From: Actinomycetes bacterium
GTDB lineage: Bacteria; Actinomycetota; Thermoleophilia; Gaiellales; F1-60-MAGs149
NCBI GenBank assembly: GCA_025360225.1
Contig: JANYCN010000041.1
Location: forward strand, 1 to 41,529
DNA length: 41,529 nucleotides
Reading direction: 5' to 3'
Part shown: in pieces, positions 8,151 to 41,394 of the stretch
How the letters are laid out: each line of letters starts with the position of its first letter
How positions within the stretch are numbered: position 1 is the stretch's first letter
Notes under the pieces: generated by a model
The model's input: the letters and a program-made list of their open reading frames with translations, nothing else
What the model was told of the DNA's origin: nothing
Database searches by the model: none
Translations under genes and position numbers: made by a program

Positions 8151-8159
8151 GCTCGTGCA

Positions 8160-8350
8160 CCGTCTCGAAACCACGTGGCGGTTCGAGCGCTGCGCAGCGG
8201 CGTCTGAAACGTCGCCCGACAGGTCGGGACGAGAGCTGGGCAAGCAATGCTTGCGCAGCGTGCGGGTCTCCAGCTCGGTCGCGTGCGAGCGGGCGTGCTA
8301 TCCAGCACGTCCGCGATCAGCGAGCTCCTTCGCTGTCGCTTGTCAGACGT
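8160..8350. repeat. Dispersed hairpin element, copy A (partial)
   Basis: About 30 bp at 8280-8310, including a hairpin with arms gcgggcgtgct and agcacgtccgc around atcc, are almost identical to 34170-34205. The flanking part of copy A differs but is also hairpin-rich: gcaagc/gcttgc is nested inside gagctgg/ccagctc. No credible gene lies in 8151-8392. Confidence 0.6.
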
Positions 8351-8404
8351 GCTCCTCACGACGAACCACCAAGTCTCTACAAAACGGTGCGCTAGCCTCC
8401 AGCA

Positions 8405-16687: not shown

Positions 16688-16951
16688 GTGATGCTGACCT
16701 CGCTGCTCGACTCTGCCGTCTGGGTCTACACGATCATGATCATCGCGTGGATCATCGTCGCGATGCTCGACCTGCCGTACAACCGCCAGCTCGCCCAGGT
16801 GCGCGACTTCCTCGATAGCGTCTGCCGCCCGTACGTCGCGCTGTTTCGTCGTTACATCCCGCCGGTCGGTCCGCTCGACCTGTCGCCGCTCGCGGCGATC
16901 CTCGCTCTGCGCGTGGCGCGCTACCTGTTCGCGACCTTCTTTGGCGTGTAG
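16688..16951 (+). CDS. yggT: YggT family membrane protein
   Basis: 87 residues with two membrane helices (about 8-30 and 62-85). The family-typical loop NRQLAQVRDFLDSVCRPYVALFRRYIPPVGPLDLSPL lies between them. YggT members cluster with sepF and divIVA and are implicated in division or envelope homeostasis; the biochemical role is unknown. TACTGT (16676-16681) is 6 nt before the GTG; an ATG follows as codon 2. Confidence 0.9.
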   Translation: MMLTSLLDSAVWVYTIMIIAWIIVAMLDLPYNRQLAQVRDFLDSVCRPYVALFRRYIPPVGPLDLSPLAAILALRVARYLFATFFGV

Positions 16952-16982
16952 GTGGAGTGATCGCGAACTGCGCCGTTCGTTC

Positions 16983-17180
16983 GGTGTCTTGAGCGAGCGG
17001 GAGCGTTGCGCGTTGCGCAGGGCGTGCTGGGGCATGTTCAGGTGGTGTGCGACGCTCTCGCGAAGCCGATGATCCGGTGCGTAGAGCGGGACGGATCGTG
17101 GGCGCCGCAGCTGGCTGGCGCAGCTACCCGGCGGGTGGGCGCAGCCGGCCAGCGCAGGACGATCCAGGCAGCCGCACGGG
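16983..17180 (-). repeat. Dispersed hairpin element, copy B (minus orientation)
   Basis: The reverse complement of this interval aligns with copy C at about 34003-34255. Shared blocks include gcctggatcgtcctgcgct, the gggt-agctgcgcc-agc-agctgcggc stretch, the cacgatccg hairpin, and the terminal gcgcaacgctcccgctcgct. The middle hairpins of copy C are shortened or replaced. It fills the gap between yggT and divIVA; no gene is supported here. Confidence 0.75.
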
Positions 17181-19421: not shown

Positions 19422-19433
19422 GCCGCCGCGTTT

Positions 19434-19549
19434 CCATCTCGAGCGGGGGAGGGAACTGGCCCGTTGATCCCGCAGCAACCGGGGCGAGAGCCCGGCAGGT
19501 GCTCCATCCAGCGCGGCTCGGTCCGTCCCGGGCGAGTCGCGGAAGATGG
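19434..19549 (+). ncRNA. SAM riboswitch (SAM-I / S-box type)
   Basis: Stem P1 is closed by ccatct (19434-19439) with agatgg (19544-19549). The conserved core follows in order: gagggaactggccc, then gttgatcccgc, GCAACC, a P3 hairpin around ccggggcgagagcccgg, GGTGCTCCATCC, and the 3' cgcggaagatgg. This matches the SAM-I core rather than SAM-IV. Placement ahead of metY/metX is canonical. Binding of S-adenosylmethionine should favour the terminator just downstream. Confidence 0.92.
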
Positions 19550-19554
19550 ATCGT

Positions 19555-31463: not shown

Positions 31464-32708
31464 GTGCCTGATCGGTCTCACCTTGCGGCGTACGCGGCTC
31501 TCACGGTTCGAGTCGCGCTCAACGTCCAGCCAGGCCAGCGGGTGTTCGTCGCCGGCCACCAGATGGGGGTGGTGCTCGACGCCGCGCCGTTCGTCCGCGA
31601 GCTTGCCGTGGCGGCGTACGACGCGGGGGCGCGCGAGGTCGTCGTCGTGTGGGAGGACGAGGCCGTTCGTCGGCTCGGCGCGGAGCGTCGGAGCGAGCGC
31701 GCGGACGCCGACTTCCCGGCGTGGCACACCGACGCGATGAACGAGCACGCCCTTGCCGGCGATGCCTTGCTCGTCGTCGACGCGAAGGATCCGCGGCTCC
31801 TCTCCGGCCTGCCACAGGACCGGTTGTCGGCACGCGCGGCCGAGCTGCAACGACGCTGGCGCCCGTCGAGCGAGGTGATCGGCCGGCTCGCGACGAACTG
31901 GGCGTTCGTCACCGCCGCGACGCCGGGGTGGGCGCGTAGCGTGTTCCCGGGCGAGCCCGATGACGTCGCAACCGAGCTTCTGTGGGAGGCGATCCTGCAT
32001 GCAGTGCGAGCCGACCTGCCCGACCCGGTCGAGGCGTGGCGCAGCCACGTCGCCGACCTCGCCGCGCGTGCGCGCTACCTGACCGAGCGAAGGTTCCGTG
32101 CATTGCGGTTCGTCGGGCCCGGGACGGACCTCGACGTTGGTCTCGCCGACGGTCACGTCTGGTGCGGCGGTGCGGCGACAGCCGGTAGTGGCGTCAGCTT
32201 CGTGCCGAACCTGCCGACCGAGGAGGTCTTCACGGCGCCGCATCGACGACGGGTGACCGGCCACGTGCGTGGCACGCAACCGGTGCCGATCCGCGGCGAG
32301 ATCGTCGAGGGCTGGGAGCTGGAGTTCAAGGATGGTCGCGTCGTCGCTGCGACGGCCCAGGCGGGGGAGGAGGCGCTGCTCGCGCTGCTCGCGACCGACA
32401 AGGGCGCGTCGCGGCTCGGTGAGGTCGCGCTCGTTGCAGGCAGCTCGCCGACCCGGGCGACCGGCGTGCGGTTCGAGCATCCCGTGTTCGAGGAGAACCT
32501 CGCGTGCCACATCGCGCTCGGCCGCGCGTACGCGCCGACCGTCGACGGCGGCGCGTCGATGACCGCTGACGAGCTCCTCGCACACGGAGCGAACACGAGC
32601 GACGAGCACGTCGACATCATGTGCGGCTCTCCCGAGGTAACCGTCTCCGGTATCCGCAGCGATGGCGGCGTCGAGCCGCTCCTCGTGGGGGGACAGTGGG
32701 TGTGGTAA
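31464..32708 (+). CDS. Aminopeptidase, peptidase M29 family (copy 1)
   Basis: 414 residues. M29 metal-binding regions are visible: PNLPTEEVFTAP (first Glu pair), LGEVALV (Glu), FEENLACH (Glu/His) and SDEHVDIM (His, Asp). The family is dimeric cobalt/zinc aminopeptidases such as AmpS/AmpT, probably cytoplasmic. TACTGT (31449-31454) lies 9 nt before the GTG. It overlaps the next gene, a clear paralogue, by 7 bp, indicating tandem duplication. Confidence 0.88.
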   Translation: MPDRSHLAAYAALTVRVALNVQPGQRVFVAGHQMGVVLDAAPFVRELAVAAYDAGAREVVVVWEDEAVRRLGAERRSERADADFPAWHTDAMNEHALAGDALLVVDAKDPRLLSGLPQDRLSARAAELQRRWRPSSEVIGRLATNWAFVTAATPGWARSVFPGEPDDVATELLWEAILHAVRADLPDPVEAWRSHVADLAARARYLTERRFRALRFVGPGTDLDVGLADGHVWCGGAATAGSGVSFVPNLPTEEVFTAPHRRRVTGHVRGTQPVPIRGEIVEGWELEFKDGRVVAATAQAGEEALLALLATDKGASRLGEVALVAGSSPTRATGVRFEHPVFEENLACHIALGRAYAPTVDGGASMTADELLAHGANTSDEHVDIMCGSPEVTVSGIRSDGGVEPLLVGGQWVW

Positions 32709-33970
32709 CGATCGGCGAGGGTGCGCTGCCAACCGAGGCGCAGCTTGCCGCGTACGCCCGCCTCGTCGTCGAGGTTGGTGTCGCCGTTCGACCGGGACAG
32801 CGGTTGTTGATCGACGGCATTTCGGGGGGTGCGGCGCTCGAGTGCGCACCGTTCATCCGTCACGTCGCTGCCGCGGCCTACGACGCTGGTGGGAGCGACG
32901 TTGTCGTCGTGTACGACGACCAGGCGCTCCGGCGGCTCGGGTTCGAGCGGATGGCTGACCGTTCCTTGCCAGAACCGGCGAGCTGGTGGGCGGGCTACCC
33001 CAACGAGCACGCGCAGGCCGGTGACGCGATGCTCACCGTCGATGGGTCTGACCCGCGACTCCTGCACGGCGTCGCGGCGACGCGCGTCGCCGCCCGAACG
33101 GCTGCTCGGGGCGCTCGGCTGCGCGTCAGCCAGGACCTCGTGATGCGGGACGCCTTCAACTGGAGCTATGCGTGTGCGCCGACGCCCGCGTGGGCGAGCC
33201 GCGTGTTCCCGGACGACGAGCCGGAGGGGGCGACGGCGCGGCTGTGGCATGCCGTTCTGCACGCCTGCCGGGTCAACGCCGCCGACCCGGTTGCCGCGTG
33301 GCGCAGCCACCTCGCGCAGCTCACGGACCGTGCCGCGCAGCTCACCGCGCGGCGTTTCGTCGCGTTGCGCGCCGAGGGCCCGGGAACGGCGATCGAGATC
33401 GGCCTCGCGGACGGGCACGTGTGGGGCGGCGGTGGCGCGGTGGCGGCCGACGGCCTGCCGTTCGCGCCGAACCTGCCGACAGAGGAGGTGTTCACCGCCC
33501 CGCACCGCCTGCGGGTGCACGGACGCCTTCGTGGCACCGCGCCGGTGGAGATCCGTGGTGAGATCGTCGAAGGCTGGACGCTGGTGTTCCGCGACGGCCT
33601 GATCGTCGAGGCGACCGCGACCGACGGACAGGAGAGCCTTGAGCGCCTTCTCGCCACCGATGACGGCGCCCGCCGCCTCGGCGAGGTCGCGCTCGTCGCC
33701 GGTGCCTCGCCGACGCGGGAGACCGGTGTCTGCTTCCAGAACGCGCTGTTCGAGGAGAACGTCGCCTGTCACGTCGCGGTTGGCGCGGCGTACCCGACGA
33801 CGATCGCGGACGGTCGCGACCGCTCGCGGTCCGAGCTCGAGCGGTCCGGTGCGAACGACAGCCTCGTGCACCTCGATCTGATGTGGGGCTCGCCGGAGGT
33901 CGACGTGTTCGGCGTGCGCGCAGACGGGAGCGAGGATCCGCTCCTCGTAGCAGGGGAGTGGGCTACCTAG
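32702..33970 (+). CDS. Aminopeptidase, peptidase M29 family (copy 2)
   Basis: 422 residues, collinear with copy 1 along its whole length. It shares ADGHVW, NLPTEEVFTAPHR, RGEIVEGW and LGEVALVAG. The metal residues are kept (EEVF, GEVALV, FEENVACH, HLDLMWG), but the DEH of copy 1 reads LVH here, so its second site may differ. The GTG at 32702 overlaps the copy 1 stop by 7 bp; an alternative GTG at 32696 exists. The divergence suggests an old duplication with separate substrates. Confidence 0.86.
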   Translation: MVTIGEGALPTEAQLAAYARLVVEVGVAVRPGQRLLIDGISGGAALECAPFIRHVAAAAYDAGGSDVVVVYDDQALRRLGFERMADRSLPEPASWWAGYPNEHAQAGDAMLTVDGSDPRLLHGVAATRVAARTAARGARLRVSQDLVMRDAFNWSYACAPTPAWASRVFPDDEPEGATARLWHAVLHACRVNAADPVAAWRSHLAQLTDRAAQLTARRFVALRAEGPGTAIEIGLADGHVWGGGGAVAADGLPFAPNLPTEEVFTAPHRLRVHGRLRGTAPVEIRGEIVEGWTLVFRDGLIVEATATDGQESLERLLATDDGARRLGEVALVAGASPTRETGVCFQNALFEENVACHVAVGAAYPTTIADGRDRSRSELERSGANDSLVHLDLMWGSPEVDVFGVRADGSEDPLLVAGEWAT

Positions 33971-34002
33971 CTAGTGGTCTGATTGTGAGATGACCGTGGT
34001 CA

Positions 34003-34255
34003 TCCGACTGCCTGGATCGTCCTGCGCTTGCCGGCTCTGCCACCCGTCGGGTGGCTCTGCCAGCTAGCTGCGGCGGCCACGATCCGGCCCGCTGTTCGTG
34101 CCGGATCGTGGGCTTCGCGGGAGCGTTGCGCGCCGCTTGCACTTAGCGTGTCAAGGCCTTCGCCTTGACACGCGTGCGAGCGGGCGTGCTATCCAGCACG
34201 CCCGCGATCGGCAAGCCCTGCGCGACGCGCAACGCTCCCGCTCGCTCGAGGCACC
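34003..34255 (+). repeat. Dispersed hairpin element, copy C (fullest copy)
   Basis: Between the M29 pair and the next gene (33971-34415 holds no supported gene). Perfect stems, in order: ccaccc/gggtgg (34040-34054), a 12-bp stem 34077-34088/34100-34111, and a 16-bp outer stem 34117-34132/34226-34241. The outer stem encloses a 12-bp hairpin (34146-34173, loop cttc) and an 11-bp hairpin (34180-34205, loop atcc), a three-way-junction layout. Copies A, B and D share blocks of it. A 60-90-residue frame inside is a by-product of the repeat. Confidence 0.85.
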
Positions 34256-34415
34256 CGATGACCATGTCATCTGGCAATCACACCACGAGGCTAGGTGTGC
34301 GCTCCCTCGCCGTGTGCGAAACATGGGCAGTCCCTCCGATGTGTGGCGCGGCGTCCGGTCGTAGCGTGGCGTTTGTCGGTACCCCGCCGACGCCCACGAC
34401 GGAAGGAACCCCCTC

Positions 34416-41185: not shown

Positions 41186-41263
41186 CGTGCCGGGTGGCGA
41201 AGCTGCCCGGCACGTCCAACGCTCCGCCGTCCGGGCGCGGGCGAAGCACTCCTAGTAGTGCTT
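41186..41263 (+). terminator. Two hairpins downstream of the metallopeptidase gene
   Basis: cgtgccggg/cccggcacg (41186-41214) and aagcact/agtgctt (41244-41263, followed by t). Either may end transcription from the left, or, for the second, from the right. No gene is supported in 41137-41529. Confidence 0.5.
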
Positions 41264-41394
41264 TGTGTAGTGGTTATTCGCGGTGGTGGAAGAGGACGAG
41301 TTGGTGGTGGTTGACGGGTTGGTGGCAGCTGCGGCAGTAAGCCGTCCCAGCAGGTGAACGCCGGTTGGAGGAGCCGGACGATCGCGGGGAGGGT

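Follow-up and report, generated by a model that had tools for sequence, protein, structure and literature searches.

The 41,529-nucleotide stretch of DNA analyzed here (hereafter the window) carries a hairpin-rich intergenic sequence, copy C, which a first-pass annotation had bounded at positions 34,003 to 34,255 and grouped with three further copies, designated A, B and D. The locus raises the question of whether such a sequence is a REP/BIME element, a member of a family of structured RNAs or a non-autonomous palindromic element mobilized by a transposase acting in trans. Our analysis argues for the last of these. With a probability of about 0.92, we take copy C to be a MITE, a non-coding 318-bp derivative of a DNA transposon, mobilized by a DDE transposase that acts in trans and is specific for CTAG. 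The mobilizing enzyme would be encoded elsewhere, and is probably of the IS630, IS701 or IS5 type.

The hairpins originally described for copy C, with a 16-bp outer stem and perfect hairpins of 12, 12 and 11 bp, were recovered at the same positions, and all four copies in the window do lie between genes (Table 1). The bounds of copy C, on the other hand, had to be revised: the element extends on both sides to 33-bp terminal inverted repeats (TIRs; CTMGTGGTSTGATTGTSARATGGCRTGGTCAT) that had been missed. Alignment of 30 genomic copies reveals that complete copies start with CTMGTGGTSTGATTG and end in its inverted repeat, and that their flanks are unrelated. On its left side, copy C directly abuts the stop of an M29 peptidase gene, generating the arrangement CTAG-CTAG at 33967-33974, and the Pfam M29 match of the encoded peptidase reaches profile position 406 of 406. 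The region upstream of copy C (window 31464-33970) contains two adjacent related genes, 1262 bp apart and with 74-76% DNA identity, the second of which encodes the M29 thermophilic aminopeptidase.

Table 1. Position, strand and supporting details of copy C, its component parts and the related repeats identified in the window.
Feature	Position	Strand	Details
Complete fam1 MITE, copy C	33971..34289	+	93.4% identity over the full 318-nt consensus
Boundary tetranucleotides of copy C	inside 33971..34289		CTAG left, CGAG right
Left terminal inverted repeat, CTAGTGGTCTGATTGTGAGATGACCGTGGTCATC	33971..34004	+	Copy alignment with sharp boundary; TIR comparison
Right terminal inverted repeat, CTCGTGGTGTGATTGCCAGATGACATGGTCATC read inward	34257..34289	-	Copy alignment and TIR comparison
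12-bp perfect hairpin, arms CCACGATCCGGC	34077..34111	+	
16-bp outer stem around the two-hairpin module	34117..34241	+	34117-34132 paired with 34226-34241
64-bp double-hairpin module (12-bp and 11-bp hairpins)	34144..34207	+	Perfect hairpins at 34146-34173 (12 bp) and 34180-34205 (11 bp)
CTAG with TAG stop of the upstream M29 peptidase gene	33967..33970	+	Adjoins the element's own CTAG (CTAGCTAG)
Copy A, second MITE-like family	8152..8395	+	Ends CTCG then TGCACCGTCTCG and CTAG then CGCACCGTTTTG; shares the second hairpin of the double-hairpin module
Copy B, fam1 member with internal deletion and decayed TIRs	16950..17174	-	
Copy D, internal fam1 fragment (consensus about 95-168), near contig end	41402..41496	-	
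Solo end matching the end of the genome's IS701-type insertion sequence (CTAGTAGTGCTTTGT)	41252..41266	+	Beside copy D

Copy C belongs to a family, fam1, with a 318-nt consensus and 33-bp TIRs that present 3 mismatches between them. Instead of the four loci listed initially, 170 fam1 loci were mapped in 2.50 Mb (77% of the genome), totaling 32.8 kb, and the reversed consensus mapped to 0. A restriction to a handful of copies, which the first-pass annotation named as grounds for refuting its reading, thus does not apply. The TIR pattern yields 283 matches in the 3.24-Mb genome versus 1 for a reversed control, and the genome total is about 200 copies. Full-length matches to copy C elsewhere in the genome show about 90-93% identity, and the mean identity of full fam1 copies is 91%. 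The commonest spacing of paired TIRs is 312, with additional classes at about 251, 213, 185, 148, 112, 88 and 72, and TIR-pair lengths range from 68 to 374, the longest in the 2.5 Mb. No copy in these 2.5 Mb is long enough for a transposase, and neither a transposase ORF nor an autonomous copy was found among them. The length classes look like products of internal deletion from a single sequence. Members of the ~312 class contain the double-hairpin module, which the ~251 class lacks and which recurs in a second family. This 64-bp module is the least diverged part of the element, departing from the fam1 consensus by 1.2% versus 7-11% for the TIRs and left half, which reads as recent acquisition combined with exchange between families; constraint provides an alternative reading. 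With a length below 500 bp, TIRs, many dispersed copies, unrelated flanks and REP-like partial derivatives, fam1 displays the features listed for MITEs (PMC10969869).

The blocks of sequence said to be common to copies A-D were confirmed for C, B and D (90 nt at 80% identity between C and D; 76 nt at 78% and 37 nt at 89% between C and B), whereas copy A has only the hairpin module (consensus 200-252) in common with C. The differences in the hairpins that each copy keeps are explained by internal deletion and decay, copy D being a fragment of 75-95 bp. The second MITE-like family, which is less numerous than fam1, has ends CTMGTGYACCGT and shares with fam1 only the double-hairpin module. Besides copy A, its members were observed at L148 (1922-2213), L034 (1301-1529) and L035 (18971-19224), with hairpins GTGATCTGGTATCCACCAGATCAC and GGCAAGCAATGCTTGCC. 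A third repeat, with ends CTAGGAGCCCGTCAAA...GGTCGGCGATGGCGCGTGGG, was detected at L103 (4459-4482), L082 (2349), L120 (13622-13707) and L151 (10490); fam1 copies often adjoin it, with one CTAG common to both. The window also harbors a SAM riboswitch (RF00162, 64.9 bits; 19431-19552, + strand), located upstream of a gene starting at about 19658, and, at the contig start (1-388), tandemly repeated units of about 163 bp that include a palindrome around GTGCAC.

The bases immediately outside the G of GTGG at fam1 ends are C (93%), T (91%) and A or C (69 and 27%), defining a CTMG context followed by the TIR. CTAG is 8.6-fold depleted in the genome (799 observed vs 6864 expected), and fam1 is found within 60 bp of 195 of these 799 sites, or about a quarter. 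Because the depleted CTAGs cluster at fam1, neighboring elements of different families have a single CTAG in common and no direct repeat other than CTAG was detected at fam1 ends, we take CTAG to be the target. CTAG is present at both ends in 22 of 51 TIR pairs, a count in which duplication and site choice look alike, given that the target is itself CTAG, and nested insertions gave no direct reading of the duplication, being ambiguous or truncated by contig ends. CTCG takes the place of CTAG at about a quarter of fam1 ends, with the two ends varying independently of each other. Within one end type, the C of CTCG is linked to a TIR variant (0/41 vs 13/44, p=9e-5), and these ends look as if the C were carried by the element; simple duplication of TA or CTAG does not explain them. 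An origin of CTCG in the target site was considered and rejected, as CTCG almost invariably faces outward from the end of the element and never forms a direct repeat.

Outside this genome, the exact fam1 TIR has 0 matches in 40 relatives. The 15-mer CTMGTGGTSTGATTG occurs 179 times here versus one in the other 298 genomes sampled from the class, with at most 1 per genome. A search for the TIR pattern across 84,980 species genomes returned one match, in Pseudomonas, which was judged to be due to chance and discarded. A BLAST-type search identified one clear homologous family in the order, in a genome of another genus of the same family (G003). At its 14 places, the G003 family follows the fam1 layout, with CTAG and the TIR, and with a CCTGGATCGTCCTGCGC block and CTGGAGCGAGCGGGAG on opposite sides. 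Its TIR core is different (CTAGTGGTKCGACACGGAAATGGCG) and has been altered at both ends together, a paired change that a single transposase recognizing both ends would require.

Placement with respect to genes was analyzed using gene calls from a custom, simple codon-usage caller. fam1 is intergenic at 81 of 86 loci, versus 3.6% of random placements, and it is enriched in convergent gaps (33/86 loci vs 138/965; p=3e-7) and depleted in divergent ones (6/86 vs 260/965; p=1e-5). The stop of the neighboring gene falls exactly in the boundary CTAG (distance 0) at 50 ends, and no other distance is seen at more than 5. Using a frame scoring that is independent of start codons, an in-frame TAG stop was detected at 47 of 130 CTAG ends vs 4 of 260 control frames (p=4e-21), and boundary stops in G003 at 8 of 16 ends vs 0 of 32 control frames (p=3e-5), p-values that are indicative only, since the two ends of one element are not independent. 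The boundary CTAG constitutes the in-frame TAG stop of the neighboring gene in 26 of 54 complete copies. In two of these it does so on both sides, as expected if, prior to insertion, a single palindromic CTAG had served both convergent genes, and five unoccupied 4-bp CTAG overlaps of convergent genes still exist in the genome.

These boundary stops are natural, and the proteins not truncated, because NCBIfam profile matches run to or near the profile end for leucyl-tRNA synthetase, formate-THF ligase, thiolase, transhydrogenase beta and M3 oligopeptidase. For formate-THF ligase, several relatives from other genera keep the ...GLF stop in CTAG without an element, providing at this one locus the empty orthologous sites that had been proposed as a sign of mobility; in G003, the stop of this gene is TGA. 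Since occupancy is similar for stop and other intergenic CTAGs (26 vs 28 complete copies; 140 vs 206 free sites; p=0.30), CTAG targeting combined with selection against gene disruption is enough to account for the pattern, and a particular affinity for stop codons need not be invoked. Elements are present at 6 of 324 CTAGs within genes. MITEs are known as a kind of element, but their landing on stop codons appears to be undescribed, and a limited literature search turned up no report of CTAG elements being concentrated at stop codons.

The possibility that fam1 comprises structured RNAs (terminators, riboswitch-like elements or sRNAs) copied for their function would be in keeping with a consensus that folds along nearly its entire length and much better than shuffled sequences (z = -13.8 as DNA), with the location of fam1 at gene 3' ends and with inner hairpins that vary least. 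Yet covariation in the stems does not exceed that of shuffles (94.2 vs 94.1% paired; 8 vs 6.5 +/- 1.6 pairs with changes on both sides), so that the compensatory changes for which the first-pass annotation proposed to look are not seen beyond this level; Rfam returned no match for fam1, and copies with deleted hairpins are common, all of which makes a functional RNA family highly improbable. The stems would instead represent inherited element structure, not demonstrably selected, although it is possible that the palindromes act as transcription terminators or 3'-end stabilizers. Still less credible is a REP/BIME spread by RAYT, a Y1 tyrosine transposase acting on single-stranded hairpins. Like REPs (PMC3733652), fam1 is palindromic, intergenic and mostly situated between convergent or co-directional genes, where REPs are enriched, and the genome does encode one Y1_Tnp gene. 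However, REPs are 20-40 bp long, GTAG-tagged, linked to a Y1 transposase and devoid of long TIRs (PMC3733652), whereas a fam1 unit measures about 318 bp, carries a matching pair of 33-bp TIRs, with a CTAG context at both ends, and has no 20-40-nt GTAG-tagged unit, and its TIR is absent near the single Y1/RAYT-type gene. The initial suggestion of a non-autonomous mobile palindromic element served by a transposase in trans, conversely, is well supported by the TIRs, the hundreds of dispersed copies devoid of a transposase ORF, the graded deletions, the fixed CTAG context, the element-free orthologous stops at one locus and the homologous family in a sister genus.

Within this mobile-element interpretation, the identity of the driving transposase can be narrowed to a few types. 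No insertion sequence carrying the fam1 TIR (TGGTSTGATTGTSARATGG) was found in 77% of the assembly, where TIR pairs measure at most 374 bp. The absence of the parent may reflect fragmentation of the assembly at these repeats; in addition, genomes are reported to harbor MITEs but no intact parental element (PMC3119063). Resident matches to DDE_Tnp_1 and DDE_5 were examined as the parent and rejected, as they belong to IS5-type and IS701-type elements with other ends. An IS630/Tc1-mariner transposase, duplicating TA inside CTAG, has a chance approaching even. A preference of IS630 for TA in CTAG is attributed to Tenzen and Ohtsubo 1991, as listed among the references of PMC2170065, and G003 contains an IS630-family element that lies in CTAG, with ends TA followed by GTGTC..., at the very end of a copy of the G003 family. 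Against this candidate, IS630 (DDE_3) has 0 matches in the assembly of this genome, and in G003, a match of the ends to the MITE TIR could not be shown for any of the three IS630 transposases. An IS701- or IS5-type transposase duplicating a 4-bp CTAG/YTAR is a tentative candidate too, somewhat short of an even chance. IS701 generates 4-bp duplications in Thermus (PMC6352166), and MITEPsy1, probably of IS5 type, inserts at CTAG/YTAA (PMC3189936). A resident IS701-type element (DDE_5), split over contigs C35 and C87, ends in CTAG followed by TAGTGCTTTG, and fam1 fragments in L038 (about 2446-2580) and L116 (about 150-200) are fused to IS701-type ends, one of which also lies near copy D (window 41252). 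Nevertheless, the IS701 end is unlike the MITE TIR beyond CTAGT, and the IS5-type copy in contig C26 ends differently (AGTCCGTTTCAG). We also observed a 45-bp IS701-ended element that holds a piece of fam1 and, in L101 (G000:C26, 1-460), an IS5-type transposase end at CTTAG within a fam1 copy, with ends AGTCCGTTTCAGTAGG.

Several described systems resemble fam1 in part. IS630-mobilized MITEs, such as Correia/NEMIS and RUP, are likewise TA-flanked, hairpin-rich and present in high copy number, with TIRs of 20-30 bp, but, unlike in fam1, their parental insertion sequences are known; to our knowledge, a CTAG and stop-codon context is not the rule among them. By target, the nearest known system is MITEPsy1 of Pseudomonas syringae, which like fam1 is non-coding, bounded by TIRs, without a transposase and inserted at CTAG (PMC3189936). 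MITEPsy1 is 100 bp long and occurs in a handful of copies, with a clear 4-nt CTAG/YTAA duplication and a proposed parent, ISPsy2 (PMC3189936), whereas fam1 is about 318 bp long, has about 200 copies and an unrelated TIR, and its parent was not found. In the account given by PMC10969869, Chunjie of Geobacter uraniireducens and QMITE1/2 of Coxiella are, like fam1, hundreds of bp long, mostly intergenic and present in tens of copies, accompanied by many internally deleted or partial ones that are REP-like. Their TIRs differ from that of fam1, as do the target duplications, which in QMITE2 are direct repeats of 7-9 bp, and the parts of that account dealing with them do not report placement on stop codons.

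We propose that a DDE transposase acting in trans would recognize the 33-bp TIRs and insert the element at CTAG, duplicating TA or CTAG, with insertions inside genes presumably being eliminated by selection. CTAG, while rare in this genome, is relatively common in TAG stops and between genes, which, together with this selection, would explain why around half of the complete copies lie exactly on a natural TAG stop. Insertion at such a site would leave the TAG in place and the host gene unharmed, and convergent genes sharing one CTAG would each retain their own stop. On balance, and with some reserve, we favor the view that the CTAG-specific MITEs of this bacterial family use natural TAG stops, including 4-bp convergent CTAG overlaps, as safe harbors. 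The element end would preserve the stop, allowing hundreds of copies at nearly no cost, the hairpin block may act as a two-way terminator, and the depletion of CTAG would channel insertions to these sites. Such a process would explain in concrete mechanistic terms how a non-autonomous element attains about 200 copies in a compact genome that is 91% coding, through a target that is rare in genes and common at stops. It predicts that, in genomes poor in CTAG, TAG stops will also harbor other CTAG-targeting elements, and it makes available natural insertions of strong hairpins, located exactly at gene ends, that would be useful for the study of transcription termination between convergent genes.
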